The notes below the pieces were generated by a model that worked only from the letters and a program-made list of their open reading frames with translations, was not told the origin of the DNA and searched no databases. A program made the translations under genes and the position numbers. A stretch of DNA of 64,000 bases, from positions 310,001 to 374,000 of the forward strand of contig NZ_JAHNZT010000002.1 of NCBI RefSeq assembly GCF_019039035.1, given 5' to 3'. Within the stretch, counting starts at the first letter, position 1, and each line of letters opens with the position of its first letter. Shown piece after piece: positions 19,551 to 60,776 of the stretch. Source of the stretch: Citreicoccus inhibens (GTDB lineage: Bacteria > Myxococcota > Myxococcia > Myxococcales > Myxococcaceae).

Positions 19551-19566
19551 ACGGACGGAACGACGC

Positions 19567-20391: not shown

Positions 20392-23300
20392 TCAGCGCGA
20401 TGCCTCGAGCGCCTCCTTCAGTCTCCGAGCCAGCTCCTCGACCGCGGGCGCCTTGAGCAGGCTGTAGTGGTCGCCTGGCACGGTGTGCACCTCCAACTTG
20501 GCGCCCACCAGCGCGGACCAGCCTCCGTCCTGAGGCAGGCCCGCTGGCGTCTCCGTGGCCTTGAGCAGCAGCACGGGCCCGGGGCTCGCGCGTGCGCGGT
20601 AGCTCCGTCCCGCGCGCAGGTGCGCCTCGAACACGCGGTACAGCGCGCGCAGCGAGTCCGCTCCCATGCCGGACGGGAGCGCGCCGGACTTCACGGCCTC
20701 CTCCATGATCGCGTTCATGAGGGCCTCAGGCTCCAGGTCCGCGCGCCGCGCCGCGCCGAGGTCCAGGCTCTCCAGGGACAGGCCCATCAAGTCTCGCGCG
20801 AACATGCCCAGCCGCTGGAGCGCATCCGGCTCTGGCTCCGCCGAGTGGGGAGGCGCGGGCGCGTAGGCGTCGATGAGGACGATGCGGGCGACCTGCTCAC
20901 CGTGCTCGCGAAGCTGTCGCGCCATCTCGTAGGCGATGACGCCCCCGAGGGACCACCCGCCCAAGGTGTAGGGCCCGTGAGGCTGAACCTCTTGGATGGC
21001 CTGCACGTAGGCCGTCGCGAGCGCCTCCAGGGTCTCTCTCGGTTCGCTGGTGCCATCGAGCCCACGCGCCTGGAGTCCGTAGAACGACTGTTCAGGGCCG
21101 AGCCGTCGCGCCAGCTCCGCGTAGCAGAGGACGCCGCCCCCCACGGGATGGACGAAGAAGAGCGGCGGTCGCGCTCCAGCCGCCGTGTCACCGAAGGGCA
21201 CCAGCGAGGTGTGCGCCTCGGCGTGGGCGTCTCGCAGCAGCGTGGCGAGTGCTTCGACCGTCGGCGCGCGGAACAGCGCGGCCAAGGGGAGACGTCGTCC
21301 CATGGCCTCTCGGATGCGCGCCATCACTGTCACCGCGAGCAGGGAGTGCCCTCCCAGGTCGAAGAAGTTGTCGCGCACGTCGAGCGCGCTCGTTCCGAGC
21401 ACGTCCTCCCAGATGCGCGCGAGCTGTTGCTCCACGGGGTCTCGTGGTGCGAGTCGCTCGCGCGTGGTGCGCTCCTCGGCCCGCGGCTCGGGAAGTGCGC
21501 GCCGGTCGACCTTGCCGTTGGGTGAGAGCGGGAGCGCTTCGAGGACGACGAAAGCGGAGGGCACCATGTACTCAGGCAGATGGAGTCGCAGGTGTGTGCG
21601 CACGACGTCGAGCGGCGGAGGTGTGCTCGCGGGGACGAGGTACGCAACGAGGCGTGCGTCTCCTGGCGAGTCCTGGCGGAGCAGGACGCAGGCATCGCGT
21701 ACAGCGGGAAGTGCACGCAGTGCGGCCTCCACCTCCCCGAGTTCGATGCGGTATCCGCGGAGTTTGATCTGGAAGTCGAGCCGGCCGAGGTACTCGAGGG
21801 TGCCATCGGGGCGCCAGCGCGCCTTGTCTCCGGTGCGGTAGAGGCGAGCGCCGGGGACCGAAGAGAAAGGGTTGGGGAGGAAGCGCTCCGCGGTGAGGTG
21901 CGGCGAACGGAGGTAGCCGCGAGCGACGCCCTCACCGGCAAGGAAGAGTTCCCCTGGGACTCCGATGGGCGAGGGGAGGCCGGAGGCGTCGAGGACGAAG
22001 GCAGAGGAGTTGGAGAGCGGACGACCGATGACGGGCACGGGGACTTCCGTCCCCTGCATGAGCCACGTGGTGGCGAGGACCGTGGCCTCCGTGGGGCCGT
22101 AGCCGTTGAACGCGCGTGTCCGCGTCGTCGCGGAGAGGGTTCGCCAGAGGGACTCGTCCACGGCTTCGCCCGCCAGGACCAGCAAGCGCGGGACATGGGC
22201 TCGCGTGAGCAGGCCCGCCTGTAGCATCAGCTTCGCTTGCGCCGGTGTGCAGCCCAGGACATCCACGTGCCCTTGCTCCATCCACGACAGCATTCGCTCG
22301 GGATCCCTTCGCGTCTCCTCTGAGACGAGGTGGAGCGAGTGCCCATCGAGCAGCTGGACGAGGTGATCCACGGAGACGTCGAAGTAGAGCGGTGCGTTGA
22401 AGGCGACGCGGAGCCCCGCGGGCTGGCCCGCGTAGATCGAGCGAGCCAAGGCCCGATGGATGTGGAGGACCGAGCGGTGCTGCACCATCACGCCCTTGGG
22501 CGTGCCCGTGGAGCCCGACGTGTAGATGACATACGCGAGGTTCTCGGCGGTCGTGTGGTGCGTGAGGTCATCGGGCGACTGGGCCGCGATCTCCGGGCCG
22601 GCCGTGTCCAGGTCGACGAGGTGCATGTCGCCGAGAGGCCACGTCTCCAACAACCGACGACGCGTGACGAGCACTGCCGCGCCGCTGTCGCGAAGCAGCA
22701 AGGCCGTGCGCTGCGTGGGCGCTGAGGGATCCAACGGGACGTAGGCCCCGCCCGCCTTGAGAATGCCCAGGATGGCGGCAAGCGCAGCAATGGAGCGCTC
22801 GAGACAGATCGCGACGGGGACCTCAGGGCCCACGCCCAGTCCTCGCAGATGTCGCGCGAGCTGGTTGGCTCGGGCGTTGAGTTGGAGGAACGACACCGTC
22901 TCTTGCTCCGCGACGATGGCCACCGCGTCGGGAGTCCGCGCCACTTGTTGTTCGAAGGCCTGAGGCAGACAGACCGTGCGCGGAAAGTAGGCCTCGGGGC
23001 CCGCGCATTCCCGCATCAGCCCGTGCTGTTCCTCGGCGGAGATCAGGGACAGGGTGCGCAGTGGTTGCGTGGGTGCGGCCACTGCGCCTTCGAGCAGTCG
23101 CTCGAAGTGTGTCATCCATCGGCGAGCGGTCGTCACCTCGAAGAGGTCCGTGCTGAAGGTCAGCACGCCCCGGTATCCGTCGGGGGTCCGCGAGAGCGTG
23201 AGGTTCAGCTCGAACAGCGTGGTGTCGGCCTCCACGTCCACGCCTCGCATCGTCAGCTCGGGCAGCGCCACTTCTTCGGCGGGCGCGTTCTGGAGAGCGA

Positions 23301-24363
23301 ACATGGCCTGGAAGAGGGGCGTGCGGCCGAGGTCCCGGGCGGGGTGGAGTTCCTCGACGAGGCGCTCGAAGGGGATGTCCTGGTGCTCGAAGGCGCCGAG
23401 GGTGGAGTCTCGGACTTGAGCCAGGAGGGAGCGGAACGAGGAGTCCGGAGTGAAGCGAGCGCGAAGGACGAGGGTGTTGACGAAGAAGCCGATGAGGGGC
23501 TCGGTTTCGGCGAGTCGGCGGTTGGCGATGGGGGAGCCGACGAGGACGTCGTCCTGGCCGCTGTAGCGCTGGAGCAGGGACTGGAAGGCGGCCAGCAGCA
23601 CCATGAAGGGCGTGGCTCCCTCCCGTTGTGCCAGCGACTCCAGCGCGGAGGCGAGGGCCACGGGCAGATGGACTGGCAGCGCCTCACCCCTCGCGGAGAG
23701 CCCCCTCGGGCGAACCTTGTCCGTGGGGAGCTCCAGCGCGCGCGGTGCACCGGCGAGCTCCTCTTTCCACCAGGTGAGCTGTGCGTCGAGCGCTGGTCCC
23801 TGGAGCCAGTCGCGCTGCCACCGTGCGAAGTCCGCGTACTGGACGGGCAGCTCGGGCAGCGGCGAGGGCAGTCCTTGCGTGAAGGCGGCATAGAGCATGC
23901 CGACCTCGCGGACGAGGATGCCCGTGGACCAGCCATCGGACACGCTGTGGTGCACGTTGACGAGAAGCACGTGCTCCGTGTTTCCGACGCGCATCAACGT
24001 GACGCGCATCAGCGGGCCCTCGCTCAGCGAGAAGGGCTGACGCGCATCCTGCGTCGCGATCCGAATGGCTTCGGCCTGGCGCTGGCCCTCGGGGGTTTCG
24101 ATGAGATTGACGACCTTCAGTGGCAAGCCCACGGGCGCGTGGATCTGCTGCCACGGTTGCCCGTGCTCCTCGTGGAAGGTGGTCCGCAAGGCTTCGTGGC
24201 GCAAGCGCAGCGCATCGAAAGCCTTCTGAAGCGCTGGCACGTCGAGCCTTCCCGACAGTCGCAGCGCCGCCGGGATGTTGTAGCGCGGGCTTCCAGGTTC
24301 GAGCTGATCCAGGAACCACAGTCGCTGCTGCGCGAACGACAGCGGGATGCGCTCGGTCCTCGG
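20392..24363 (-). other. NRPS module 10: C-A-PCP and terminal thioesterase
   Basis: The C domain has HHSVSDGWS (~10949). A-domain landmarks FDVSVDH, LGCTPAQA, VLAGEA and NGYGPTEATVL give the code DVDGVAGVLK, which matches nothing I know. PCP Ser11819 is in LGGHSLLAVT. The ~270-residue type I thioesterase has FFVHPVGGG, nucleophile Ser11950 in GWSLGG, Asp11977 in VLIDAYAP and His12111 in GDHYSLL. It may hydrolyse or cyclise the product; sequence does not decide which. Confidence 0.9.
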
Positions 24364-27300
24364 CGTGCGGAGCAGGGGCGGAGGCCGCATGCCCGGGGCC
24401 TGGTCATGGAGGCGCTCGGCGAACTGGGCGAGCGTGGGGGCTTCGAACAGCACCCGAACGCCCGATTCGATCCCCATCTCCGAGCGCAGGCGCGCCATCA
24501 ACTGTGTGGCCAGCAAGGAGTGTCCACCCAGCTCGAAGAAGTTGTCGTGGCGACCCACTGCGGCGACTCGCAGGACTGCGCGCCAGGACTCGGCCAGCCG
24601 TTCTTCCAGTCCCGAGCGCGGCGGTTCGTGCGGAGTCGCCGCCTGTGCATCGGTCCACTCCGGCGCGGGGAGCTCGCGACGGTCGACCTTGCCGTTGGGG
24701 GACAGCGGGAGCGCGCCGAGGAAGACGAAGGCCGAGGGCACCATGTACTCGGGCAGATGGAGTCGCAGGTGCACGCGCAAGGCGTCGAGGGTTGGCGGTG
24801 TGCTCGTGGGGACAAGGTAGGCGACGAGGCGAGAGTCCCCTGGGGAGTCCTGTCGGAGCAGGACACAGGCATCGCGCACCGAAGGCACTGCGCGCAGGGT
24901 GGCCTCAATCTCCCCGAGTTCAATGCGGTGGCCGCGGAGTTTGATCTGGAAGTCGAGGCGGCCGAGGAACTCGAGGGAGCCATCGGGACGCCAGCGAGCC
25001 TTGTCCCCGGAGCGATAGAGGCGGGCGCCAGGGGTTGAGGAGAAGGGGTGAGGGAGGAAGCGCTCGGCGGTGAGGTGGGGGGAATGGAGGTAGCCGCGTG
25101 CGACGCCCTCGCCAGAGAGGAAGAGTTCGCCCGGGACCCCGATGGGAGAAGGCAGCCCGGAGGAGTCGAGGACGAGGGCGGCGGTGTTGGAGAGGGGCCG
25201 GCCGATGACAGGCACCGAGACAGGCGTCCCTTGAATGGGCCAGAGGGTCGAGTTCACCGTGCACTCGGTGGGGCCGTAGACATTGAAGGCCTTGGTGCGC
25301 GGCGTGGCTTGGAGGGCGAGCCAGCTGGCTTCGTCGATGGCCTCGCCCCCCACGAGGAGGATTCCCGGCACGTGGTGCCGCTGGAGCAAGCCGGCTTGGA
25401 GCAACAGCTTGAGTTGTGACGGCGTGCAGTCGAGCGCGTCGATGTGGTGCTGTTCGAGCCACGACAGCAGTTGCTCCGGGTCCTTTCGAGCGTCGTCTGG
25501 GACGATGTGCAGGCAGTGCCCTTCGAGCCAGAGGACGAGGTGCTCAATCGAGGCGTCGAAGTGGAGCGGAGCGTTGAGGCTGACGCGGGCGTTGGAGGGG
25601 AGCGCACCGCAGGCGGCTCGGACCATGGCGCGATGGAGGTTGGAGACGGAGCGGTGCTGCACCATCACGCCCTTGGGCGTGCCCGTGGATCCCGACGTGT
25701 AGATGACGTACGCGAGGTTCTCCGGGTAGGCGCTCTCGGGCAGGTCCTCGCCCGACAGCGTGCTGAGTCGCTCATGCTCCGCATCCACGCAGACGACGCT
25801 GGGCACCTGGGGCTGCCACGCGTCGAACACCGCCTGCTGGGTGATGAGCACGGTTGCGCCGCAGGCCTGGAGCAAGAGGGAGCGACGCGGGATGGGCGCG
25901 CTCACATCGAGCGGGACGAAGGCTCCACCTGACTTGAGGACCGCGAGGAGGGCGACGAGTGCATCCGGCGAGCGCTCCATGCAGAGCGCCACGGGGCTCT
26001 CCGGGCCGCCTCCCAGCGCGCGCAGATGGCGCGCGAGCTGATTGGCGCGCGTGTTGAGTTCGAAGAACGAGAGGGACACGTCCCCCATGCGGAGCGCGGG
26101 TGCGTCCGGAGTCCGGGCGACTTGTTGCTCGAAGGCTTGGGGGAAGCAGCCACTCCGTGGGAGATAGGCCGCAGGGCCAGTCCAGTTCCGCAGCAGGGTC
26201 TCCCGCTCCTCGGGAGCGAGCAGGGACACCGCTCGCAGTGGAAGCTCGGGCTGGGTGGTGACGGACTCCAGCAGCACGCGCAGGTGGGTGAGGAGGCGCT
26301 CCGCGGTGGTGTGCTCGAAGAGGTCGGTGCTGAACGACAGCCACCCCACGAAGCCTTCCGGCGCGCGACGGAGATCCAGGCTCAGCTCGAACTGCGTCGT
26401 GCCGCTGTCATCGAGTCGCGCGGGCCGCAAGGCGAGCCCCGGCAATGCCAGCTCCGGCACGGGCGCGTTCTGGAGAGCGAACATGGCCTGGAAGAGGGGC
26501 GTGCGGCCGAGGTCCCGGGCGGGGTGGAGTTCCTCGACGAGGCGCTCGAAGGGGATGTCCTGGTGCTCGAAGGCGCCGAGGGTGGAGTCTCGGACTTGAG
26601 CCAGGAGGGAGCGGAACGAGGAGTCCGGAGTGAAGCGAGCGCGAAGGACGAGGGTGTTGACGAAGAAGCCGATGAGGGGCTCGGTTTCGGCGAGTCGGCG
26701 GTTGGCGATGGGGGAGCCGACGAGGACGTCGTCCTGGCCGCTGTAGCGCTGGAGCAGGGACTGGAAGGCGGCCAGCAGCACCATGAAGGGCGTGGCTCCC
26801 TCCTGTTGTGCCAGGGCTTCCACCGCCTCGCTCACGCCGCGCGGGAAGGCGACGGACAGCGTGGCGCCTCGGTTGGAGAAGACGGCCGGCCTGGGCCTGT
26901 CGGTGGGGAACTCCAACGCGGGGGGCGCACCCGCGAGTCGAGCCGCCCACCACTTCAATCGCGTGCGGAGCGTCTCGCCCTGAAGCCACGTGCGCTGCCA
27001 GACGGCGTAGTCGGCGTACTGGACGGGCAGCTCCGGCAACGGCGATGGACGGCCTTGGGCGAAGGACGCGTACAGCGCGCTCATCTCGCGGACGAGCACT
27101 CCGAGCGACCAGCCGTCCGAAACGATGTGATGCAGCGTGAGGAGCAGGAGGTGCTCGCGAGGCTGGAGCTTCAGCAGCAACGCACGCAGCAGTGGCCCCT
27201 GCGCGAGGTCGAACGGCCGCCGTGCATCTTCGGTCGCGAGGCGAACGGCTTCGGCCTGTCGCTGGGAGGCGTCCGCCACGTGGCGGAGATCCACGTGTGC

Positions 27301-30300
27301 CATGGGCACGGCCATCTTCGCGTGAATGTCCTGGACGGGCTCTCCCGACTCCGTGCGGAACGTGGTGCGCAGCGACTCGTGACGGCGCACCAGCTCTTCG
27401 AAGCCGCGCAGGAGCGCCTTCTCATCCAGGTCACCCTCCAGGCGCAGCGGCAGGGGGACGTTGTAGAGCGGGCTGCCCGGTGAGAGCTGATCGATGAACC
27501 ACAGCCGCTGCTGCGCGAACGACAGCGGCAGTGCGCCCACTCGCGAGACTCGCTTCAGGGGCGGGGCCTGAGTCACCGCGATATCACCGAGGCGCTCGGC
27601 GAACTTCGCCACCGTGGGCGCGTCGAACAAGAGGCCCAGCGGCGCTTCTCGTCCCAGGACCGAGCGGATGCGCGCGACGACTTGGGTCGCGAGCAGCGAG
27701 TGGCCACCGAGGTCGAAGAAGTTGTCGTGGATGCCCACCGACGGGCGGCCCAGCACCTCGGCCCAGAGCGCGACGAGCTGCGCCTCCAGCGCGTTGCGTG
27801 GAGCGGCGTCCTCGGTGGGCCGTGCGACCGGCGCCTCGGGCGCGGGCAAGGCTCTCCGGTCCACCTTGCCGTTGGGGGACAGCGGCAGCGCGGCCAGCTC
27901 CACCACGGCCGAGGGCACCATGTACTCGGGCAGGTGCTTCTGCACGTGCGCTCGCAGCGAGGACACCTCTCCGCCGGGGACGACGTAGGCCACCAGCCGC
28001 TTGTCTCCGGGGACCTCCTCGCGAGCCACCACCACCGCGTCGCGCACGCCCGGGTGTTGGCGCAGCACGGCCTCCACCTCGCCCGGCTCGATTCGGTAGC
28101 CGCGCACCTTCACCTGGAAGTCCACTCGGCCGAGGAACTCCAGCGTGCCGTCCGCGCGCCACCGCGCCTTGTCCCCCGTGCGGTACAGCCGCGCTCCGGG
28201 CGTGGCGCTGAAGCCATGGGGCACGAAGCGCTCCGCCGTCAGGTCCGCTCGACGCAGGTAGCCCCACGCGAGGCCGTCTCCGCCGACGTACAGCTCTCCG
28301 GGCACGCCCGGAGGCACCGGCTGCTGGCGGCCATCCAACACCCACGCCGTCGAGTTCGACAGCGGCCGGCCAATGGGCACCGTGCGCCCCACCGAGTCGC
28401 CGCCCCTCAGCGAGTGCGTCGCCGAGAACGTGGTGTTCTCCGTCGGACCGTACCCGTTGATGAGCACCGAGCCCGAGGGCAACCGCGCCAGGTGCTCGGA
28501 CACGCGCTCCACGGGCAGGACATCTCCTCCCGCGAGCACTTGCCGGACACGCGTCAGGGCCGCGCCCTGGTGCTGCACCATCTGCGTGAAGAGGGCCGCC
28601 GTCAGCCACAGGGTGGTGACGCCTTCCCGAGTCAGCAGCGCGCCCAGCTCCTCCAGCGAGAGCGCACGCGGCGGGGCCAGCACGAGCCTCGCGCCGTGCA
28701 GCAGCGCACCCCACACCTCCAGGGTGGAGGCGTCGAAGGCCACGGGCGCCAACTGAAGGAGGACTTCGTCGGGGCCGAAGCGCGCGAAGGTGTTGTTTCG
28801 CACCAGTCGCGTCACGCCTCGGTGCGGCACGCAGACGCCCTTGGGGCGCCCCGTGCTTCCGGAGGTGAACATGACGTAGGCGAGGTCGTCTGCGCACACC
28901 TGCGTATCGGGCGGGGTGGAGGGCCTCGCCGAGATGGCGTCCCACTCTGCGTCCAGCAGCACCAGCAGGCCGCCCACTTCGGGCAGCTCATCCGCCAGTC
29001 GCTCCTGCGTCAGCACCACACTGACGCCGGCCTCCTGGAGCATCCACGCCACGCGCTCCGTGGGCTGGCTCGCCTCCACCGGCACATAGGCCGCGCCTGC
29101 CTTGAGGATGCCCAGCATGCCCACGACGAGCTCGGGCGAGCGCTCCACGCTCAGGCCCACGCGGTCTCCGACTCGAACCCCCAGGGTCTTCAAGTGCCAG
29201 GCCACTTGATTGGCGCGGGCGTTGAGCTGGGCATAGCTGAGGCGCCGCTCGCCCGAGCTGACCGCCACCGCGTCGGGCATGGCATCCGCCTGCATGGCGA
29301 AAAGGGCGTGCACTGTCAGCTCGCGCGGGAAGTCGCGGGCCGTGTCGTTCCATTCAACGAGGACGCGCCGCCGCTCCTCCGCGGTCATCAGCGGGAGGTC
29401 GGACACACGCGACTCCGGCGAGGCGAGGGCCGCTTCGAGGAGCAGCCGCAGGTGCCGAGCCATGCCCTCCACGGTCGAGGACTCGAACAGCGCCGTGCTG
29501 TAGGTGAATCCGCCCACGAAGCCCTCGGCCTCGCGTTGCAGGGCCAGCTCCAGGTCGAAGCGCGTCACGCCATGCTCGGTTTGCAGTGGACGCAGCGAGA
29601 GCCCAGGCAAGGCCAGCTCCGGCAGCGGGGTGTTGTGCAGGTTGAAGGTGATCTGGAAGAGCGGTGACCGCCCCAGGTCGCGCGTGGGCCGCAGCTCCTC
29701 CACGAGCTTTTCGAAGGGCAGCTCCTGGTGCTCATAGGCGCCCAGGGTCGTGTCGCGCACTTGCGTGAGCAACTCGCGGAACGTGGTGCCACGATGGATG
29801 CGAGCCCGCAGCACGAGCGTATTGGCGAAGAAGCCGATGATGTTTTCAGTATCCGCGTGACGCCGTCCCGCGATGGGGGCGCCGATGAGCAAGTCCTCCT
29901 GCCCGCTGTAGCGGTGCAGCAATGCGTCGAAGGCGGCGAGGAGCACCATGAACGGCGTGGCGCCGTCGCGCTGGGCTCGGGATTCGATGGCGAGGCTCAG
30001 CTCGCGTGGGAGATGCAGGCGCACCGCGGCGCCTCGATAGGACTGATGCGTTGGCCGCGGATGATCCGTGGGCAGCTCCAGGTGGGACGGCGCCTGGGCG
30101 AGCTGTCGCTTCCAGTATCCGAGCTGGGTCGCCAACACGTCGCCCTGGAGCCAGCCGCGCTGCCACACCGCATGGTCGGCGTACTGGACCGGCAAGTCTG
30201 GCAGCGACGACGGGAGTCCCCGAAGCGAGGCCGCGTAGAGCTGCGCCATGTCGCGCACGAGCACACCCATGGACCAGCCATCCGAGATGATGTGATGCAG

Positions 30301-33300
30301 GTTGAGCACGAGGACGTGCTCGGTGTCGCTCAGCTTCAGGAGGAGCGCTCGGACGAGCGGGCCCCGCACGAGGTCGAACGGACGCCAGCCCTCCTCGGTG
30401 GCGAGGCGCAGGGCCTCCGCTTCACGTTGCGCGCTGTCGCGCAGCGCCGTCAGGTCCCCCCGCGAGAGCGGAAGCGGGGAGGGCGAGTGGATGCGCTGGA
30501 AGGGCGCTCCCTGCGTTTCATGGAACGTGGTCCGTAGCGACTCGTGTCGGCGCACCAGCGCATCGAAGCCTTGCTGGAGGGCCGCCTCGTTCAGTGCGCC
30601 GGTCAACTTCAAGGCAAACGGCAGGCTGTAGGCGATGCCAGTCGAGGCGAGCTGCCCGAGGAACCACAGCCGCTGCTGCGCGAACGAGAGCGGGTGATCC
30701 GAGGTCCGGTCCGCGCGGGTGAGCGTCGGTGGCGCAGGCGACTCGACGGCGCGAGGGGCGTGCTCGTCCAACCTCGCGGCGAGCGCGGCGACGGTGGGCG
30801 CTTCGAACAGGGTTCGCAGAGGCAGCTCCACGCCGAAGCCACTCCGGACGCGCGCCACCACCTGGGTGGCCAGCAGCGAGTGACCACCCAGCTCGAAGAA
30901 GCTGTCGGTCACGCTCACCCGTTCCACACCCAGCACTTGGGCGAACAACGTAGCCAAGGCGTGCTCGGTGGGCGTGCGGGGCTCCACGTGCGCGCCGCGA
31001 GGAAGGGCGGACGCGCTCGGGGCCGGCAGGGCGGCGCGGTTCAACTTGCCGCTCGTCGTCAGAGGCAGCGCATCCAGGTGCACGAAGACGGTGGGCACCA
31101 TGTGCTCGGGCAACCGCTGCTGAAGGGAGGCGCGCAGCGCGGCGGACTCCAGCGCGGGCCCGTCTCCCGTGACGTAGCCCACCAGCCGCGCGTCTCCGGG
31201 CGAGTCCTCGCGCACCAGCGCCACGGCCTCGCGCACGCCAGGGCTGGCGCGCAGCGCGGACTCCACTTCGCCCAGCTCGATTCGGAAGCCCCGCAGCTTC
31301 ACCTGGAAGTCGAGCCGGCCCAGGTACTCCACCGTCCCGTCCTCCAGCCACCGCGCCTTGTCCCCCGTGCGGTACAGCCTCGCGCCCGCTGTCTGGCTGA
31401 AGGCGTCCGGCACGAAGCGCTCCGCCGTCAACTCCGGCCGCGCCCAGTACCCGCGCCCCACCTGGACGCCGCCGATGTACAGCTCTCCCGGCACCCCCAC
31501 CGGAACGGGCCGGCCTCGTCCGTCCAGCACGTACAGCCGCGTGTTCGCCACCGGCCGGCCAATGGGGACGCGCCGCAACGACTCCCCTCGCGGGCACGCC
31601 CACGCGCTGACGTCCACCGCCGCTTCCGTCGGGCCGTAGAGGTTGTGCACCTCCACTCCCGGCAGTCGCTCCTGGGTGCGTCGCACGGACTCCACTGGCA
31701 ACGCCTCGCCGCTGCACACCACGCGCCTCAGCGACGTCAGCCGCTCGACTCCGGGCTCCTCCACGAAGGCGCGCAGCATGGAGGGCACGAAGTGCACCGT
31801 GGTGACGCGCTGCTCGCCCATCAGTCGCGCAAGGTACGCCGGCTCCTGGTGTCCCCCAGGGCGTGCCACCACCAGCCGCGCGCCCGTCATCAACGGCCAG
31901 AAGAATTCCCAGACGGACACATCGAAGCTGAAGGGCGTCTTCTGCAACACCGCGTCCTCGGCGGTGAGGCCGTACTCGTGCTGCATCCACCGCAGGCGGT
32001 TGACGACGCCCCGGTGGGCATTCATCGCCCCCTTGGGCCGGCCCGTGCTGCCCGAGGTGAAGAGGACGTAGGCCAGCGACTCCGGCCCCGCCACCGTATG
32101 CACCGGCGTCCTCGGCTGCGCGCCCACCTGCGCCGCGTCCGCGTCCAAGCGCAGCACTCGCGCGGACGTCTCCGACACCCTGCCTTCCAGGCCGCTTTGG
32201 GTGACGACGACGCAGGCCGCCGTGTCCTCCAGCATCCCCTTCAGGCGCTCCCTCGGGTAGCTCGGCTCCAGCGGCACATAGGCGCCGCCAGCCTTCAGCA
32301 CGCCCAGCAACGTCACCACCAGCTCGGCCGAGCGCTCCAGGCACACGCCCACCCGTGACTCCGGGCCCACACCCCAGGCGCGCAGCTGGTGCGCCAGCTG
32401 GTTCGCCTGCGCCTCCAACTCCCCGTACGTCAGCCGCGCTCCCTCCGACTCCACGGCGATGGACTCGGGTGTCTTCGCCACCTGCTGCTCCACCAGGTGG
32501 TGCACCTGCTCGTCCCGTGGGTACTCCGCGGCGGTGTCATTCCACGCCACCAACACCCGCGCCCGCTCCGACTCCGTGAGGAGCGGCAGGTCCACGAGCG
32601 GTGTGTCCGGTGACGCGATCACGGCGCGAGCGAGGAGCGACAGGTGCTCGGCCATGCGCTGGAGGGTGCGCTCGTCGAACAAGCTTGTGGCGTACTCGAA
32701 CCGGCAGGAGAGGCCCGCGCGGTGCTCCCAGACCTCCAGGCTCAGATCGAACTTCGAGGTGTCCGTCGACACGTCCACGCCGCTGAGTTTCAGCGATCGC
32801 GGTGAGGCATCCGCCTCGGGCGTGTTGAGGACGTTCAGGACGACCTGGAACACGGGCGTGCGGCTCTGGTCTCGCGGGACCTGGAGCATGTCCATGAGCC
32901 GCTCGAAGGGCGCGTCCTGCCGTGAATAGGACTCCAGGGCTTGCTGCCGCACTCGGCCGAGCAGCTCGCGGAAGGTGGGGGTGCCGGACAAGCGCGCGCG
33001 GAACGCCAGCGTGTTCACGAAGCAGCCGATGAGTCCCTCGACCTCGGGGCGCGTCCGGCCCGCGATGGGGGTGCCCACCGCGAAGTCTTCCTGGCCCGAG
33101 TAGCGCCCGAGCAGGGTCTGGAACAGCGCCAGCAGCACCATGAAGGAGGTCGCCCCCTCCCGCCTGCCAAGCTGGAGCAACGGCTCGGACAGGTCACGCG
33201 ACAACTGCAACCGCAGGCTCGCGCCCGCATAGGACTGCACGGCGGGCCTGGGCCGATCCGTGGGCAACTCCAGCGCTGGGACGTGGCGCAACTGCTCGTT

Positions 33301-42300: not shown

Positions 42301-45300
42301 GTACGCGCCTCCGGCCTTGATGATCGCCAACGTCGACACCACCAGGGGGAGTCCGCGCTCCATGCACACCGCGACGCGGTCATCCAGACCCACGCCCTGT
42401 TCGCGCAGCCAGTGCGCGAGGCGATTGGCGCGCAGGTCGAGCTGGCCATACGTCAGGCGCTCCTCGCCGCACTCCACCGCGAGGCGGTCCGGGTGTGCCG
42501 CGGCCCGCCGCGCGAAGTGCTCCGCGAGGGTCACGTCCGACGGATACGGTCGCTGCGTGTCATTCCAATCGAGGACGACCTTGCGCCGCTCGTCCGCGGG
42601 CAGGAACTCCAGCCGCGAGACGCGCGTGTCCGGCTGCGCGACCACGGATTCCAACAGCATGTGGAGCTGGCGCGCGAGCCGCTCCGCGGTATCCGGCGTG
42701 TACAGGTCGCTGCTGTACTCGATGTGACCGCGCACCCCGTCTGAGGTCTCGGTGAGCATCAGCCCCAGCTCGAAGCGCGCCGTGGCGTTGTCCACCTCCA
42801 CGGGGCGCAAGCGGAGGCCGGGAGCGTGCAGCTCCTCGGCGGGCGTGTTCTGGAGCGAGAAGATGACCTGGACCAGCGGCCCTCGGCTCAGGTCGCGTTG
42901 CGGATGCAGCGCCTCGACGAGCTTCTCGAAGGGCAGCTCCTGGTGCTCGTAGGCGGACAGCGTGGTCTCGCGAAGCTGGGCGAGCAGGGCTCGGAACGAG
43001 TCCTGGGCCCGCACGCGCGCGCGAAGGACGAGCGTGTTGACGAAGAAGCCTACGAGCCCTTCGAGTTCACCCTGGCGACGTCCCGCGATGGGTGAGCCGA
43101 TCAGGAGGTCCTCCTGCCGGCTGTAGCGCGACAGCAGGATGGCCCAGGCCCCCAACAGGGCCATGAAGGGCGTGGCGCCTTCCTGGCGGGCCAGGGTCAG
43201 CAATCGCTGGGACAGCTCGCGAGGCACGTGGACGGGATGCAGCCCGCCGCGCATCGAGCGGACCGTCGGCCGAGACTTGTCGGTGGGTAGCTCCAGCACC
43301 CGCGTGGCAGCGGCGAGGGCGTCCTGCCACCACGCCACGTGACGATCGAGCACCTCACCCTGGAGCCACTGCCGCTGCCACGCGGCGAAGTCGACGTACT
43401 GCACGGGCAACGCGGGCAGCTCCGGCTTGTGGCCCGATGCGAAGGCCACGTAGCCCGCGGCCACCTCCCGCACCATGACGCCCATGGACCAGCCGTCCGA
43501 GACGATGTGGTGCATGCACAGCAACAACAGGTGCGTGTCCTCCGAGAGTCGCAGCAGGCGCGTGCGCAGCAACGGCCCGGTGGACAGGTCAAAGGACCGC
43601 TGGGCCTCCTCGATGCACAGGCGCTGGGCCGCGGCCTCGCGCGCTTCGGCGGCGACTTCCTCCAGATCGGTGAGCGGAAGTGCCCAGGCTCCGGGAGGCT
43701 GGATCCGCTGCACCGGCTGGCCGTCCTTCAGGGCGAAGGTGGCGCGCAATGGCTCATGCCGGAGCACGAGGTATTCAAGGGCCAGCCGCAGCGCTTCGGT
43801 GTTCAGCGCGCCTTCCATCCGGAGCGCGCCGACCATGTTGTAGTGACTGCCGCCCGGCTGGACTTGATCGAGTACCCAGAGCCGCTGTTGCGCGAACGAC
43901 AGTGGCAGCTCCCCGTCGCGAGGAATGGTCCGCAGGGGCGGCACCTGTGCCGTGCTCGGCTGGCGCACCAGGAACTGCTCTTCGACGAACTCGGTGACGC
44001 GGGCGACGGTGGCCGCGCCGAAGAACGCGCGCAGCGGAAGCTCGACATGGAACGTGGACCGCAGCCGAGACACGAGCTGGGTGGCCATGAGCGAGTGGCC
44101 TCCCAGCGCGAAGAAGTCGTCGTGGAGGCCCACAGGCTCGACGCGGAGCACGTCGCGGAACAGCTCCGCGACTCGTTGTTGGAACGGAGTCAGCCGTTCA
44201 ACCGGGCGAGCCCCTGGGCTCCGCTCGACATCGGACGGCGGCGGCGGGAGGGCGTGGCGGTCGAGCTTGCCGTGAGGAGAGAGGGGCAGCGAGTCGAGGA
44301 GGACGAAGGAGGAGGGGAGCATGAACTCCGGCAGGAGGAGCCGGAGGTGAGAGCGAAGCGCTGCGGGGTCGATGGAGGAGGGAGAGACGTAAGCGACGAG
44401 GCGCTTGTCGCCGGGAGAGTCCTCACGAACGAGTGAGAGGGCCTCGCGAAGAGAGGGGAAGGAGCGAAGAGCGGCTTCGACTTCCCCCAGCTCGATGCGG
44501 AAGCCGCGCAGCTTCACCTGGAAGTCGGAGCGGCCCAGGAAGAGGAGGGAGCCGTCCGGGAGCCAGCGAGCCCTGTCGCCGGAGCGGTAGAGGCGAGCGC
44601 CTGGGGAGGAGGAGAAGGGGTGGGGGATGAAGCGTTCAGCGGAGAGGGCGGGGTTGCGGAGGTAGCCATGGGCGAGGCCATCGCCGCCGATGAAGAGGTC
44701 GCCCGGGACGCCGATGGGGACGGGATGCAGCGAGGCGTCGAGGAGGAAGACCTGGGTATTGGCGATGGGCCGGCCAATGGAGACCGCCTCCCCCACGGTG
44801 TCTCCAGGCGAGAGGAGGAGACTCGTGGTGATCGCCGTGCTCTCGGTGGGACCGTAGGCATTGAGCACCGAGCGCCCCTGGGCCAGCCGGGCGCGAGCAC
44901 TGGGCACCGGCATCACATCACCGCCCGCGACGAGCTGCCGGACCTGCGCGAGCGCTTCGGGCGCGTGCTGCTGCATCAGGTCGAAGAGCGCGGCGGACGT
45001 GAAGATCGTGGAGATCCTCCGCGCAGTGATGACGCGCGCGAGCTCTGCTACATCTGGCGCATGCGGTGGCGCGAGGACCAACCGGCCGCCATGCAGCAAC
45101 GCGCCCCAGATCTCCAGCGTCGACGGATCGAACGTCAGCGCGGTCGATTGGAGGATGACCTCCTGCGGCCCAAACTGGACGAAGGTCGAGCCGAACAACA
45201 GGCGCACCACGCCGCGATGCGGGATGGCCACGCCCTTGGGCTTCCCCGTGGAGCCCGAGGTGTACGTCACGTACGCGAGGCTCTCCGCCCAGACCTCCCG

Positions 45301-48300
45301 TGGCGGTGCGTCGCTGCGGGCACGAGCAAGCTGCTCGGCCTCGGTGTCCAGGCGCACGACCGGGCGAGTCCCCACGGGCAGCGCTGACGCCAGCGCCTCC
45401 TGCGTGAGCACCGCCGCCGCGTCCGAATCGTCGAAGAGGAAGGACAACCGCTCCGAGGGTTGGGCCGCGTCGAGCGCCACATAGCTCCCACCCATCTTGA
45501 GGATGCCCAGCAATCCCACGATGAGGTCCAGGCTCCGGTGCATGCAGACCGCGACGCGCGGTGCGGGCCCAAGCCTCAAGCTCAGCAAATGCCACGCGAG
45601 CTGATTGGCTCGCGCTTCCAGCTCCGCGTAGGTGAGGGCCTCGTCTTCGAACTCGACGGCGACCGACGTGGGGGCGCGGTGGACCTGGAGCGCGAACAAC
45701 TCCGGCACCGTGGCCTCGCGCGGATAGTCCACCTGCGTGGCGTTCCAGTCCTCGAGGATCTGCCGTTGCTCCCCGACCGTCATGAGGGTGAGCGCGCTGA
45801 TCCGCGCTCCGGCATCCTGAGTGACGACCTGCAGAAGATTCAGGAAGTGCGACGCGAAGCGACCGGCGGTCGCCGGGGTGAAGAGGTCCTGGCTGTATTC
45901 GAGCGCGCCCTCCAGGGTCCCGCCGCGCGCCATGAGGGACAGGCCCAGGTCGAACCGCGCGGTGTCCGGCGCATTCGGAAGAATGTCCACGCGAACGCCC
46001 GGCAACGACGGCGGCGCCATGGGGGCGTTCTGCAACGCGAACATCACCTGGAACAGCGAGCCACGCTCCGTGTCGCGCTCGCCCCCCACCGCGTCCACGA
46101 GTCGATCAAAGGGAACGTCTTGATGCGCGTAGGCCGTCAGGGCCTCGGCGCGCACGCGGCGGACCAGCTCCGTGAAGGAGGGATCTCCCTGGAGGTCCGC
46201 GCGCAGGACCACCGTGTTGACGAAGAACCCGATGAGGGGCTCCAGCTCCGGGTGACTCCGCTGCGCAATGGGGCTGCCGACGCAGAAGTCCTCCTGTCCC
46301 GAGTAGCGCGCCAACAGGGTCTGGAACGCGGCGAGCAAGACCATGAACAAGGTCGAGCCCTCGGCGCGCCCCAGTCGCTCCAGCGCGACCACGCGCTCCT
46401 CGGGGATGACGAAGAAGTGACTGGCACCTCGGAGGCTGCGGGTCGCGGGTCGGCGGAAGTCTGTGGGCAGCTCCAGCACGGGCACATCCTGGAGGCGCGC
46501 GCGCAGGACCTCGACTTGGGACTGGAGCGCGTCGGAGCGCACCCACTCTCGCTGCCAGCTCGCGAAGTCCGCGTACTGGAGCGCCAGGGCCGGCAAGGCC
46601 GTGGCGCTGTGCCGCGTGAGCGCGTCGTAGTGCGCGGCGACCTCGGTCACGAGCACGCCCATGGACCACCCGTCCGAGACGAGGTGGTGCATGCACAGCA
46701 GCAGGACGTGCTCGTCCTCGGTCACGCGGAGCAGGCGGGTGCGCAGCAGGGGGCCCGTGCTCAGGTCGAACGGATGGTGTGACTCCTCCGCGATCCGCTC
46801 GCGCAGGCGGGGCTCCGAGAGCGCGCCGACGTCTTCCACGGGGAGTGGCCATGTGCCGGGCGCGGAATGGATGCGCTGCCAGGGCTGGCCATCGCGGACC
46901 ACGAACGTGGTGCGCAGCACTTCATGTCGCTCGACCAGCCGCGCGAAGGTGGCGCGGAGGGCGTCAACATCGAGCGGTCCCGAAAGGCGCAGGGCCACGG
47001 GGACGTTGTACGCGGCCTGTCCTGGCTGGAGTTGATCCAGGAACCACAGCCGCTGCTGTGCGAAGGACAAGGGCAGCACGTCCTCGCGAGCCACCGGACG
47101 CAGCGGCGGCATCGCCGCGCGCGAGGCCCCGCGCAACGTCGAGTCGAGCTGCTCGGCGAGCCGCTCGATGGTCGGCGCCTCGAAGAACGTGCGCAATGAC
47201 AGGTCGACCCCCAAGCGTGCCCGGACGCGGGTGACCAGCTGGGTGGCGAGCAATGAGTGGCCGCCCAAGCTGAAGAAGTCATCGCGGAGGCCGACCTGCT
47301 CCAGGTGCAGCACTTCGCGGAACAGCGCGCCCACTTGTTCCTGGAGCAGCGTCCACGCCTCCGAATCCTCCGAGCCCTTCACGCGGCCCGGCGGCGGGAG
47401 GGCGTGGCGGTCGAGCTTGCCGTGAGGAGAGAGGGGCAGCGAGTCGAGGAGGACGAAGGAGGAGGGGAGCATGAACTCCGGCAGGAGGAGCCGGAGGTGA
47501 GAGCGAAGCGCTGCGGGGTCGATGGAGGAGGGAGAGACGTAAGCGACGAGGCGCTTGTCGCCGGGAGAGTCCTCACGAACGAGTGAGAGGGCCTCGCGAA
47601 GAGAGGGGAAGGAGCGAAGAGCGGCTTCGACTTCCCCCAGCTCGATGCGGAAGCCGCGCAGCTTCACCTGGAAGTCGGAGCGGCCCAGGAAGAGGAGGGA
47701 GCCGTCCGGGAGCCAGCGAGCCCTGTCGCCGGAGCGGTAGAGGCGAGCGCCTGGGGAGAAGGAGAAGGGGTGGGGGATGAAGCGTTCAGCGGAGAGGGCG
47801 GGGTTGCGGAGGTAGCCATGGGCGAGGCCATCGCCGCCGATGAAGAGGTCGCCCGGGACGCCGATGGGGACGGGATGCAGCGAGGCGTCGAGGAGGAAGA
47901 CCTGGGTGTTGGCGATGGGCCGGCCAATGGAGACCGCCTCCCCCACGGTGTCTCCGGGCGACAGCAGGTGGCAGGTGGTGAAGGTCGTGCTCTCGGTGGG
48001 GCCGTAGGCGTGGATGAGCGCGCACCCCGACGCGAGCCGCTCGCGCACGCGCTCCGCTGGCATCACCTCGCCTCCGGCCATGAGCTGACGCACGCCAGCC
48101 AGGGCTTCGGGGTGGTGTTGCTGCATCTGATCGAACAGCGCCGTGGTGAGGAAGAGCACGGACACGCGATGGTCGATGAGGACACGCGCCAGTTCGGCCA
48201 GATCCGGCGCACCGGGTGGGAAGAGAACCAGCCGAGCCCCGTGCAGGAGCGCGCCCCAGATCTCCAAGGTGGACGCATCGAAGGAGAGCGTGGCGAGTTG

Positions 48301-51300
48301 GAGCACCACCTCCTCCGGCCCGAGGTGAACGAAGGTCGAGCCGAACAACAGCCGCACCACGCCGCGATGCGGGATGGCCACGCCCTTGGGCTTCCCCGTG
48401 GAGCCCGAGGTGTACGTCACGTAAGCCCAGGCCTCGGGAGGGGTCAGGACCGAGAGTGCATCGGACGACCGGGAGGCGATCTGCGCGGTCTCGGAGTCCA
48501 CGCACACCACGCCGCCGAGCCCCGCAGGCAGCTTCTCCACGAGCGCGCGCGTGGTGAGGGTCGCGACCACGCCCGAGTCTTCGAACAGGAACGCGAGTCG
48601 CGCGGCCGGGTAGGCCGGATCGATGGGGACATACGTTCCGCCCGCCTTGATGATGGCGAGCACGCCCACGACCATGTCCAGCCCGCGCGGCAGGCACACC
48701 GCGATGCGCGGCGTGCTGCTCAGCTTCGACTCCAGCAGATGCCGCGCGAGCTGATTCGCCCGTGCATCCAACTGCGCGTAGGTGAGCCGCCCCTCCGCGG
48801 ACTCGACCGCGATGGCCGAAGGGGTACGTCGCGCCTGGGCGAGGAACAACTCCGCGAGGTTCGCCTCCTTCGGGTAGTCCGCCTGCGTCGCGTTCCATTC
48901 GACGAGGACCGTCCGGCGCTCGTCCTCGCTCATGAGCGGAAGCGCGCTCAGCTTCCGGTCCATGCCGCGTGAGGCCTCGCGCAGGAGGCGCTGGAACTGC
49001 TCCGCCATGCGCTGAGCCGTCGCGGCGGTGAACAGGTCCCGGCTGTATTCGAGCTGTCCCTCCAGCTCCCCCCCGCGCTCCAGGAGCGACACGGTGAGGT
49101 CGAACTTGGCGGTTCGCGTGGTCCATCGCATCAGCTCCACGCGCAGCTCGGGCAGCGCGGGAGGAGGCAGCGGCGCGTTCTGCAGCACGAACGCGGTCTG
49201 GAACAGCGGCGTGCGCGAAAGGTCGCGCCCTCCGCCGAGCGACTCGACCAGTCGATCCAAGGGCACGTCTTGATGGGCGAACGCGGCCAGGGACTCCTGC
49301 TGCACTCCGGCCAACAACTCCGCGAAGGTGGGCTCTCCCTCCCAGCGGGCGCGCATCGCGAGGGTGTTGACGAAGAACCCGAGCAGCCCCTCCAGTTCGG
49401 GCCGGACGCGGTGGGCCACGGGCGTGCCCACACAGAAGTCACGCTGCCCCGACAGCCGCGACAGCAGGGCTTGCCAGCCCGCCATCAAGACCATGAACAA
49501 GGTGGCGCCGTGCTCCTGGCCGCGCTTCTCCAGCGCGCTCACCAGCGGCGCAGGGAGCGTGAAGAACACCGTGTCCCCGCGCGAGCTGCGCACGGCCGGA
49601 CGTGGCGAATCCGTCGGAAGCTCCAGCGTGGGAACTCCGTGCAGGTGCGCTGTCCACCAAGCCCGTTGGGCTTCGAGCGTGGGCCCTTCCTGCTCGTGAC
49701 GCTCCCACGCCGCCTGGTCGGCGTATTGGAGTGGCAGCGGTGAGAGCGGGGACGCACGCCCTTCCGCCAGCGCGGCATAGAGCGTGGCGACCTCGCGGAC
49801 GAGCACGCCCATGGACCAGCCATCCGAGAGGATGTGGTGCATGCAGAGGAGCAGCACGTGCTCCTGCGCTTGCGTGCGCAGGAGCACGGTGCGCAGCAAC
49901 GGGCCGTCGGACAGCGAGAACGGACGATGCGCCTCTTCCTCCATTCGCTGCGCCAAGGTCTGTTCGCGCGCGAGGGGCGTCAGGCTGCTCAGGTCCTCGA
50001 TGGGGAGCGCCCAGTCCGTGGGGGCGGGGTGGATGCACTGGCTCGGCGCGCCGTCGCCCGGGAGGAACGTGGTGCGCAGTGGTTCGTGTCGTTGGACCAG
50101 CGCTGCGAAGGTTCGTCGCAGGACATCGACGTGCAGGGCCCCGGTGAGCCGCAAGGCGATGGGAATGGTGTACGCCGCTTGTCCGGGCTGGAGCTGCTCC
50201 AGGAACCAGAGTCGCTGCTGCGCGAACGAGGACGCCAGGACGGTAGGGGTGCTCGGATCCGCGGAGCGTGGCAGCCGTGGAACAGACAGAGTGGCTGGCG
50301 TGGAGGGCTCTGATCCACGGAGGGCATCGAGACGCGCGGCGAGGAGCGCGACCGTCGGAGCCTCGAAGACGGCGCGCAGGGAAACCGGAACACCAGCCCG
50401 AGCACGCAGCCGCGTCACCACCTGAGTCGCCAGCAGCGAATGCCCGCCGAGCGCGAAGAAGTCATCGCGAGCCCCCACGCGCGGCTGCCCGAGCACTTCG
50501 GAGAAGACCTGGGCCACGGCCTCCTCGGTGGGCGTGCTGGGGGCCACGTACTCCTCTTTCAGCGCGGAGCGATCCGCCTCGGGCGCGGGGAGCGCGGCGC
50601 GGTTCACCTTGCCGCTCGGCGTCAGTGGCAAGGACGGCAGCACCACGAAGACCGACGGCACCATGTGCGGCGGCAGCTTCTCCGTCAGCACCTGCCGCAG
50701 CCGCGTCACTTCGCGCGAGGCACGGGCTCCGCGCGTGGGCTCATTCGACGTGGCGACGGGTGCCCCCTCGAACCGCGACGGCTCCGGCGTCAGCGCGATC
50801 CGCGTTCCCGAGCCCGTCCGACTGAACGCGACATCCATCGCGCCGTCGCGATAGGCCCCGCCCCAGCTCACCTGCACGTCGTACCCAAGCGCTCCCCCCA
50901 GGGCGTACAGGTCCTCGGGCTCCACGCCACGCGGCCCCGGCCAGTCGCGGAGCGCTTCTCGCAATGAGGCCACCGTGGCGGGTCTGCCGGACCCCGTGAG
51001 CAACTCCACCGCGCGCGCGTCCTGCCACACGCGGGCATTGGGGACGCGCCGTAGGGCGAATACCTCGGGGCGCGTGAGCAAGCGCTCTCGCATCGACTCC
51101 AGCGTTGCCTCCGAGCCCTCCGCCCACTCCGTCGGATGGAACCGAGGTGCGTCGGCGGAGGCGACATGGAGGATGACCTCGTAGCGGAAGCGGGTCAGCT
51201 CGTTGTCATACCGGCCATGCTTGGGGAGCACTTCGACGTGCGAGATGCCGGGAAGCAGCTCCGGCAACGCCGCGAAGAACGCGGGCGAGAGCAACAGCTC

Positions 51301-54300
51301 TTCTTCGCCCAGCACGTCCTGCTGCGCGCGATACCAGAGCTGCGCGGTGGACAGCGTCGGGGAGGCACGCGCCAGTCGCACCGAGGCGCGGAACGCCTCC
51401 AAGAGCGTGAGGTTGCGCACGTCCCCCAGGAAGATGCGTCCCCCGGGGCGCAGCACGCCCACCGCGCCTCGCAGCACCTGAATCAAGTACTCGGCGCTGG
51501 GGAAGTATTGGATGACCGAGTTGAGGATGACCGTGTCGAATGTGCCCGGCTCCACTCCGGAGAGGTCGTCCACGCTCCGGTGCAGGAGTGTCACGGAGCG
51601 CAGCGCGTCGCCCATCCGCTCGCGCTGGGCCTCGATGCGATCGAGCGCGGGGCGCGCGAAGTCGATGCCCCAGTACGCCTCGCAACGGGGCGCGAGGCGG
51701 TAGAGCAACAACCCCGTGCCACACCCCAGCTCCAGGATGCGACGGGGCCGGAGCTGGAGGATCTGCCTCACGGTCGTGTTGACCCACTCCCGCATCTGCT
51801 CGGCGGGCAGCGGCCCACCCGAGTAGCTGTCGTTCCAGCCCGAGATGTCGAAGGTGGGATCCTCGCTCGCGACTCCGAGCGCATAGGTCTCGTCGTAGAC
51901 GGCCTTCCACTGGGCCGTCTGCTCCCCCGCGCCCGCGGACTCCAGCTCGCCCAGGACGATGTAGGCCGCGAGCCGCTTGTCCCCGGGCGAGTCCTCGCGG
52001 GCGACCACCACGACATCCCGCACGGAGGGCTGCGCGCTGAGCGAGGATTCAATCTCACCCAGCTCGATGCGGAAGCCACGAAGCTTCACCTGGGTGTCGA
52101 TGCGCCCCAGGTACTCCAGGTCTCCCGAGGGGAGTCGGCGTGCGAGGTCGCCCGCGCGGTAGAGCCGGCGTCCAGGCGTGGGGCCGAAGCGATCCTCGAC
52201 GAAGCGGGCCGCCGTCAGCTCCGGCCGGCGCAGATACCCGCGGGCCACGCCCGCGCCACCGACGTGAATCTCGCCCGGTACCCCCACCGGCACGGGCTGC
52301 CCGGCCGCGTCGAGCAGATAGATGCTCAGGTCCGGAATCGGGCGGCCAATGACACTGGACCACGGCCGCTCCAGGTCCTTGATGCCCACCGGGCGGTAGG
52401 TGACATGCACCGTGGTCTCGGTGATGCCGTACATGTTGATCAGCCGAGGCCGTGCGTCCCCGTGACGCTCGAACCACGGGCGCAGCGCGGCCACGTCCAG
52501 CGCCTCCCCCCCGAAGATGACGAACCGCAGCGCCAGCTCGCGCGGCTCCAGGGCCTGTGCCTCCGCGTGGATGAGTTGTCGGAAGGCCGTGGGCGTCTGA
52601 TTGAGGACCGTGACGCCTTCATCGGCAAGGAGGCGCAGGAACGCCTCGGGCGAACGGCTCACCCAGTACGGGACGACGACCAGCCGCCCGCCATGAAGCA
52701 GCGCGCCCCACAGCTCCCAGACGGAGAAGTCGAAGGCGTAGGAATGGAACAGCGTCCACACGTCGGACGCGTCGAAGTGGAACCACGCGTCGGTCGCGGA
52801 GAAGAGGCGCGAGACGTGGTCATGTTGCACCATCACGCCCTTGGGCTTCCCCGTGGAGCCCGAGGTGTAGATGACGTAGGCCAGATCCGTGGGCGCGTTG
52901 CATCCCAATGGACGCGGCGCCCCCTTGGACAGTGCCTCCCTCAGGTCGCTGTCCATCCGGAGCACGGTGGCCCCCGGAGCGGGCACGCATTGTTCCAACG
53001 ACGTCTGGGTGATGAGGACTGGCGCCTGCGCGTCCTCCAGCATGAACGCGAGCTGCTCTCGCGGATATGACGGATCCAACGGGAGATACGCGCCGCCCGC
53101 CTTGAGGATGCCGAGCAGCGCGACCACGAGGTCCAGCCCGCGCTCCAGACACACGCCGACGAGCACGTCCGGGCCCACGCCGCGCCGAGCCAGGACCTGG
53201 GCCAGCGCGTTCGCTCGCACATCGAGCGCGCGATAGGTCAGCGACGCTCCCGCGCAGCTCACGGCGAACGCCTCGGGCGTGCGGTCCACCTGCGCCTCGA
53301 AGCGCTCCACCAAGGTGGGCTGTCGAGGCGCGTCCTCGCCGGGGTTCCACGCGTGCAGCACCTGTTGCCGCTCGGACTCCGCCATCAACGGCACGGTCGC
53401 AACGGCGCGCGAGGGCTCCTCCACCATCGCGCCGATGACCACTTCCAGATGGCCGAGCAGTCGGTCGATGGTCTCCGCGTCGAACAGGTCGGTGGCGTAC
53501 TTGCAGCCCACCCAGAGTCCATCCGGGCCGTGGGCCGCCTCAAACGTGAGGTCCAACTCGGCGGTGTGGTTGTCCAACAGCGCCACGTCGAGCGACAACC
53601 CCTCATCCAGGGAGAGCGCGCGAGGAATGTCGTAGTCATCGAGGACGAACGCGATGTTGTACAGCTCGCGCCGCGACGAGCCCGGCTGTGCCGCCGCGAG
53701 CACATGGTCGAACGGGCAGTGTCCATGCGCGAGCGCGCCCAACGTGCTCTCTTTCACCCGGGAGAGCAGCGCCGTCATCGTCCCTTCGGCGGGAACCTGG
53801 ATGCGCAACGGGACGAAGTTGGTGCAGTCGCCCACCAGCGTTCGGATGCCTGGGACGTCACGCCCCGAGACCGCCGTCCCCAAGACGAAGTCGGCTTGCT
53901 GACTCCAGCGATGCAGCACGGTGGCCAGGGCCGACACCACGCACATGAATGGCGTCGCCCCCTGGCTTCTCCCGAGCGCATGAAGCCGGGCCATGAGCGC
54001 CGCGGGCACTCGTCGCGACCGTCGCGCCCCGTGGAAGGACAGCCGCGACGGACGCGGGCGATCCGTTGGGAGGACCACCATCGGCGGCGCCTCGGCGAGC
54101 GTGCGCCGCCACCACCCCAGCTCGGCCGCCATCGCGCGCGCGGTCAGGTGCTCGCGCTGCCACGCCGCGAGGTCCGCGTACTGAAGGACAGGCTCCGCGA
54201 GCGGAGATGCCTGGCCCGAGGCCCAGGCGGAATAGAGGGAGGCCAGCTCGCGCACGAGCAGTCCCACGGACCAGCCGTCCACCACCAGGTGATGCAGCGA

Positions 54301-56772: not shown

Positions 56773-56866
56773 GGGAGAGCCCGTCGGTTCGATGTCCAAT
56801 CGCGAACAAACCGGTCATACCAGTCCATATGCGCGAGATTGGAAAAGACGGGAAAAACCACATGCA

Positions 56867-56909: not shown

Positions 56910-60776
<3,867 letters not shown>

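Follow-up and report, generated by a model that had tools for sequence, protein, structure and literature searches.

The myxoprincomide synthetase of Myxococcus xanthus is encoded by MXAN_3779 (PMC11619377), and its cluster spans 82.8 kb, from MXAN_3763 to MXAN_3797 (MXAN_3763-3797; PMC4902038). Myxoprincomide c506 has been recorded at m/z 506.2715, the doubly protonated ion of C45H76N10O16 (PMC4752588). Myxoprincomide clusters are conserved in Myxococcus and Pyxidicoccus (PMC12224551), and myxoprincomide-type clusters in the Myxococcia have been described as vertically inherited and probably subject to concerted evolution (PMC10435759). Other systems are relevant to the monooxygenase domain described below. 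In puwainaphycin biosynthesis, a related domain that follows a PKS module was assigned to 2-hydroxylation of the extended acyl chain, giving a 2-hydroxy-3-amino acyl unit (PMC4219810). In addition, X domains, which are derived from C domains, place P450s on carrier-bound chains and represent a known parallel (PMC8949500).

This study was concerned with a 36-kb megasynthetase gene in a DNA stretch of 64,000 nucleotides, referred to here as the window. The open reading frame (20392..56799, minus strand) is unbroken for 12,135 aa when counted from a TTG at 56799. The ATG at 56772, which is codon 10 of this frame, is the likely start and the TTG the first possible one; counting from the ATG gives 12,126 codons. 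The frame contains a single stop and zero N, and its GC content at the three codon positions is 74/49/87%. Domains were identified using Pfam over consecutive pieces of 1,000 residues and HMMs made from the gene's own domains. The domain string is FAAL-PCP / C-A-NMT-PCP / 3x C-A-PCP / KS-AT-ACP / C-a[MOX]a / 4x C-A-PCP / TE, in which MOX is the monooxygenase and each lower-case a is one part of a dead A domain. It comprises a FAAL, nine C domains, eight intact A domains, one N-methyltransferase, a KS, an AT, ten carrier proteins, the luciferase-like monooxygenase and a thioesterase (Table 1). Every carrier protein has its serine motif, and the KS and AT motifs of module 5 are intact, with HAFH as the malonyl signature of the AT.

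A sister species of the same genus carries the megasynthetase on three contigs, with 90-92% conservation in protein. The dN/dS values against these fragments were 0.13, 0.13 and 0.15 over 3,996, 1,881 and 1,110 codons; on this range (0.13-0.15) the gene is under purifying selection and, by selection, would be functional. The original prediction, made from the DNA sequence, had described one unbroken frame of about 12,126 codons running from a FAAL to a thioesterase, which the ORF listing, Pfam, the gene's own HMMs and dN/dS all confirm. Pfam and the HMMs also return its counts of nine C domains, eight intact A domains, one KS-AT-ACP and a built-in monooxygenase, and its residue assignments agree with ours for the Thr code with methyltransferase, the malonyl AT (HAFH), Ser and Val. 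To these our analysis adds that a ninth A domain, which is dead, is split by the monooxygenase, that this module has no carrier protein and that the motif of its C domain is HHxxxDT, not HHxxxDG.

Table 1. Features of the megasynthetase gene and its immediate neighbors, in window coordinates.
Feature	Position	Strand	Evidence
FAAL loading domain	55528..56649	-	Pfam AMP-binding; NCBIfam fatty-acid--AMP ligase models (under their whole-protein cut-offs)
Loading carrier protein, LGLDSL	54754..54951	-	Pfam, own HMMs, motif
Module 1: C-A(DFWNIGMVH, read as Thr)-N-methyltransferase-PCP	50329..54696	-	Pfam, own HMMs, A code
Module 2: C-A(DALFMGATF)-PCP	47146..50244	-	own HMMs, A code
Module 3: C-A(DPLFVGAAI)-PCP; C groups with position 4 of ten-module lines	43984..47082	-	own HMMs, A code, C tree
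Module 4: C-A(DLLQHGGVI)-PCP; residue predicted to pass to the PKS module	40783..43914	-	own HMMs, A code
Module 5: KS (TACSTG, EAHGTAT, NIGH)-AT (GHSFG, HAFH: malonyl)-ACP	37738..40704	-	Pfam, own HMMs, motifs
C domain of oxidase module, HHIVCDT	36310..37665	-	motif alignment
Dead A, N-terminal part, before monooxygenase; no P-loop	35611..36261	-	weak A match (40.8 bits), alignment, fold
Luciferase-like FMN monooxygenase, TIGR04020; nearest solved structure PuwE OX (6KET)	34648..35568	-	Pfam, NCBIfam, structure comparison
Dead A core, C-terminal part; without A8, A10 lysine and C-terminal subdomain; no PCP behind	34144..34566	-	own HMMs, alignment
Module 6: C(HHVVSDA)-A(DVWHVSLVD, read as Ser)-PCP	30769..33888	-	own HMMs, A code, motif alignment
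Module 7: C-A(DALWLGGTF, read as Val)-PCP	27589..30702	-	own HMMs, A code
Module 8: C-A(DAEDLGVVN; putatively basic or amide-like)-PCP	24409..27537	-	own HMMs, A code
Module 9: C-A(DVDGVAGVL)-PCP	21235..24354	-	own HMMs, A code
Thioesterase, GWSLGG	20413..21165	-	Pfam PF00975, 133 bits
568-bp near-identical block, copy 1 (modules 2/3); putative gene-conversion tract	47391..47958	-	repeat search
568-bp near-identical block, copy 2, 99% identity to copy 1	44241..44808	-	repeat search
Exact 344-bp repeat, copy 1, in C of module 8	26460..26803	-	repeat search
Exact 344-bp repeat, copy 2, in C of module 9	23280..23623	-	repeat search
Upstream syntenic neighbor, HSP70-type protein with N-terminal PilZ match; locus marker, not claimed as pathway gene	56910..59162	-	Pfam, synteny
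Downstream syntenic neighbor, VTT (DedA-like) membrane protein; locus marker	19471..20373	+	Pfam, synteny

MXAN_3779 was compared through proxies, namely the synthetase of Myxococcus sp. CA023 (14,284 aa) and a partial sequence from M. xanthus AM003. The ten-module line was taken to approximate the myxoprincomide synthetase for several reasons. The A code before the KS on the AM003 contig, DGMHHVGII, is identical to that of the ten-module line of CA023. The CA023 line has ten A domains, and the formula published for myxoprincomide has ten N. The 82.8-kb span leaves about 42.8 kb for the synthetase gene, assuming 20-kb margins. Through these proxies, the earlier view of the myxoprincomide synthetase as the nearest described case is supported. 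The features of the myxoprincomide-type locus are present here: a single giant ORF from FAAL-PCP to TE, a KS-AT-ACP followed by C-a-MOX-a without a PCP, and fixed neighbors. In Myxococcus and Corallococcus regions, the synthetase likewise lies between an HSP70-type gene (upstream) and a VTT gene (downstream), and further genes from both sides recur as well. Since both flanks are syntenic, the locus is the same and the genes are considered orthologous. As judged from sequence, the gene very likely represents the myxoprincomide-type synthetase locus of Myxococcaceae in a local form that is shorter by two steps. Whether it was an orthologue or a different line had originally been left open, and each alternative holds in part: it is an orthologue by locus, on both flanks, but has a different module set (8 versus 10). 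The HSP70-type protein with the N-terminal PilZ match adjoins the synthetase across genera.

A search with the monooxygenase domain identified close relatives (70-96%) in 49 of 96 family genomes. These were distributed over the home genus (2/2 species), Myxococcus (27/27), Corallococcus (16/16) and Archangium (4/6), where genus labels follow named records, such that Myxococcus and Pyxidicoccus records share one genus and Corallococcus and Archangium have one each. The frames bearing these relatives were mostly 10,000-17,748 aa where the contig was long enough. One gene is the family norm, and the rarity of this layout implied by the original prediction was not supported. Domain orders were compared across sixteen fetched relative regions. 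Ten intact Myxococcus-type relatives (13,299-17,748 aa) have the same domain order as the present gene. Lines of this type comprise FAAL-PCP and C-A-MT-PCP, then n plain modules, the KS-AT-PCP and C-a-MOX-a core, m plain modules and a final TE. The n/m values in Myxococcus-type lines were 4/5 (five genomes), 5/5 and 4/4 (two genomes), and 3/4 in the present gene. A further line, a single open frame of 17,748 aa (G091:C9 ~131538-184780, loci L127-L130), is larger than the lines counted in this way and was called without the methyltransferase; it is among the largest bacterial open frames known to us. The Corallococcus and Archangium lines keep the start, core and end, lack the methyltransferase and have an extra C-like (epimerase-like) domain behind the core.

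Several individual genomes are also of note. Two adjacent synthetase copies, 37-42 kb apart and with differing A codes, are found in G015 (L111-L115) and G029 (L119-L123), and in G029 both copies lie inside the conserved neighbors. In the one-contig genome G071 (L083-L085) the orthologue is in two frames of 3,713 and 10,993 aa, which may reflect a frameshift, a sequencing error or true gene fission. Two records titled 'Comamonas sp. KCTC 72670' (L022 and L051) hold Myxococcus-type synthetases and are apparently mislabelled.

The eight A codes of the present gene are given in order in Table 1, with the core between the fourth and the fifth. The CA023 codes are DVWHVSLVD, DVVLMGATM, DALWLGGTF, DVWHVSLVD, DGMHHVGII, [core], DVWHVSLVD, DGEDVAAVC, DTENVGTAV, DGEDFGVVC and DVDDLAAVY. 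We take DFWNIGMVH to specify Thr (methylated), DVWHVSLVD Ser and DALWLGGTF Val, and DALFMGATF of module 2 is presumably aliphatic-like; no code known to us matches those of module 3, module 4 and the final module. In the C-domain tree, the C domains of the present gene fall with positions 1, 2, 4, 5, MOX, 7, 8, 9 and last of the longer lines with varying support, and the grouping of C3 with position 4 has support of 0.99. Position 3, absent here, specifies Val in every four-plus-n Myxococcus-type line compared. By C-domain phylogeny, the present gene would thus correspond to a longer line minus position 3 (the Val module) and one late module. The C tree follows position; in the A-domain tree, A2 is sister to A3 (0.95) and A7 to A8 (0.98) of the same gene. 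Together with the 568-bp block (99%) and the exact 344-bp repeat, each of which recurs one module apart, this A pairing is best read as gene conversion within the gene.

These same repeats, one module apart, would also fit an assembly artifact, with nine or ten amino-acid modules in the real gene and one of them collapsed at the repeats of modules 2/3 or 8/9. The contigs of the sister species stop at window positions 47943 and 44285, at the repeat, and none carries its module 3; thus the sister genome, which breaks at the module 2/3 repeat, cannot arbitrate. However, the 123-contig assembly contains exactly two copies of each repeat, both of them within the gene, no orphan module contig is joined to either repeat, and the contig runs through the repeats uninterrupted. 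C3 and C4 have also diverged and lie at different tree positions, and 4-module tails occur in three finished or near-finished relatives as well. A collapse is therefore unlikely, and an intact gene of eight amino-acid modules is preferred. A one-module contig of the same genome (G000:C119:1-3139, L096), which holds exactly one NRPS module and no stop, was considered as the lost module and rejected, as it shares zero 40-mers with the present gene. It derives from another synthetase and is a sign that other NRPS genes here break at repeats.

The monooxygenase belongs to TIGR04020 (MupA/Atu3671 luciferase-like; 487 bits versus a curated cut-off of 244) and is inserted into an A domain, after motif A4 and before motif A5. 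An AlphaFold model, which is to be taken with caution at a mean pLDDT of 79 (62-65 for the other four models), matches A-domain cores across the insertion with a target TM of up to 0.71, suggesting that the A fold is kept and the chemistry gone. HHxxxDT was found in 46 of 47 MOX-module C domains versus HHxxxDG in 93 of 108 C domains elsewhere, counts that do not represent independent events because the sequences are related. HHxxxDT is also present in paralogues that are merely 55-61% identical in the monooxygenase, and in the sole exception (L057, HHxxxDG) the A domain is intact and a PCP is present. A "dead C domain" in the oxidase module, suggested by a regular-expression scan in which the motif seemed lost, was dropped because the alignment shows HHxxxDT. 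All synthetases of the first comparison had HHxxxDA in the C domain that follows, but paralogues do not all share it (30 of 44), and it was not kept as a signature. Two more C-a-MOX-a modules occur in the same genome (G000:C63:14030-15025, L063; G000:C22:231875-232873, L064), with monooxygenases 61% and 55% identical to the present one, and named relatives of these modules likewise follow KS-AT-PCP.

The first C domain of the oxidase module retains both catalytic histidines, and intact C-A-MOX-A-PCP modules are known elsewhere (L057, L058). Both points would agree with a working elongation module, in which the first C and the split A act and borrow the carrier protein of the next module. However, in the alignment both A parts are without the P-loop and the A5, A8 and A10 motifs, and the entire C-terminal subdomain is missing, so that the intact A core motifs and following PCP of the functional interrupted-A type are not found here. 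Domain comparison also detected no carrier protein between the split A and the next C in the present gene or in any relative with the dead-A type, and HHxxxDG is confined to the intact-type L057; a working module is thus highly improbable. The activity of the monooxygenase itself is less certain. Instead of alpha-hydroxylating the malonate-derived unit it may, although this is somewhat doubtful, be a Baeyer-Villiger or chain-shortening enzyme or work on a different carrier. In favor of chain shortening, the 2-oxo-beta-amino acid of myxoprincomide has one carbon less than a plain malonate extension would give. In some PKS lines, luciferase-like monooxygenases do shorten chains by hydroxylation and Baeyer-Villiger oxidation (reviewed in PMC8739492). 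In contrast, PuwE, the closest solved relative, is assigned to 2-hydroxylation (PMC4219810).

We prefer to read the oxidase module as the fossil of an extension module, which has an A domain that cannot activate anything and no carrier protein, and which probably just holds the oxygenase beside the ACP. Tentatively, and at just short of an even chance, such a fossil module (split dead A, no carrier protein, HHxxxDT C) may have become fixed, as an oxidase platform on the preceding ACP, in at least three paralogous families of myxobacterial megasynthetases, with the flanking modules freely exchanged. If true, fossil modules would be a general route to in-line tailoring that leaves the number of residues unchanged.

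The sequence itself shows the architecture, the orthology of the locus, the number of modules, the dead A domain, the gene-conversion tracts and the selection; the order of chemistry and the alpha-oxidation of the malonate unit are what we infer from them. A FAAL-loaded acyl group would begin the chain, N-Me-Thr and three further amino acids would be joined, and the KS-AT-ACP would carry out a single malonate extension. The embedded FMN monooxygenase would oxidize the chain while on that ACP, and the oxidized malonate unit of the original prediction is plausible as predicted chemistry. The second of the two consecutive C domains, rather than the first, most likely forms the next peptide bond and would couple the oxidized chain to Ser. 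Val and two more residues would then be added and the chain released by the thioesterase. If the ten-module line is the myxoprincomide synthetase, about 98 Da of the c506 mass remain for each unassigned residue, so that myxoprincomide has no room for a long acyl chain. A FAAL alone is no proof of a lipidated end product, and the label lipopeptide is uncertain for the present product. In evolutionary terms, the chassis (FAAL start, KS-AT-ACP-C-a-MOX-a core, TE end and fixed neighbors) is kept while elongation modules are lost, gained and overwritten by recombination within the gene.

The product is probably new, while the kind of synthetase is known and widespread. From the gene, a specific new compound can be predicted that is shorter than myxoprincomide and has N-Me-Thr close to its beginning, in a lineage that is not among the sampled Myxococcus species. 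Across the family, nature has in effect experimented within one gene, deleting modules and exchanging A domains while the core stayed fixed, as synthetase engineers aim to do, and the conserved oxidase module illustrates a broken module retained for a new job.

The oxidase module can be compared with several known systems. The myxothiazol MtaG-type interrupted A domain likewise has a monooxygenase nested in an A domain, but here the A domain is dead, the insertion is at A4/A5 rather than a8/a9, and no carrier protein lies behind it. As with glycopeptide X domains, a C-type domain would here, in our proposal, bring an oxygenase to a chain bound to a carrier; however, X domains are marked by loss of the HH in HHxxxDG and recruit separate P450s, whereas here the HH is kept in HHxxxDT and the oxygenase is covalent. 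The OX domain of PuwE from the puwainaphycin synthetase (PDB 6KET) is of the same family (48% identity, TM 0.87 to the target) and, in a line that likewise begins with a FAAL, has a PKS module on one side and an NRPS module on the other. It differs in having an aminotransferase alongside and no dead A around the monooxygenase. The myxoprincomide synthetase (MXAN_3779; MIBiG BGC0000393), compared through its proxies, shares the locus, start, core, end and split-A monooxygenase module, with domains 57-85% identical position by position. The present gene differs in having 3 + 4 plain modules versus 4 + 5 in M. xanthus-type lines, and a module 1 code for N-Me-Thr versus N-Me-Ser. The codes after Ser (Val, DAEDLGVVN and DVDGVAGVL) also differ from the proxies. 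With eight amino-acid modules and other codes in place of ten with the M. xanthus A codes, its products should differ from myxoprincomide. The new product originally held to be plausible is thus supported among the relatives compared, and it is likely new, but shorter than and related to myxoprincomide.
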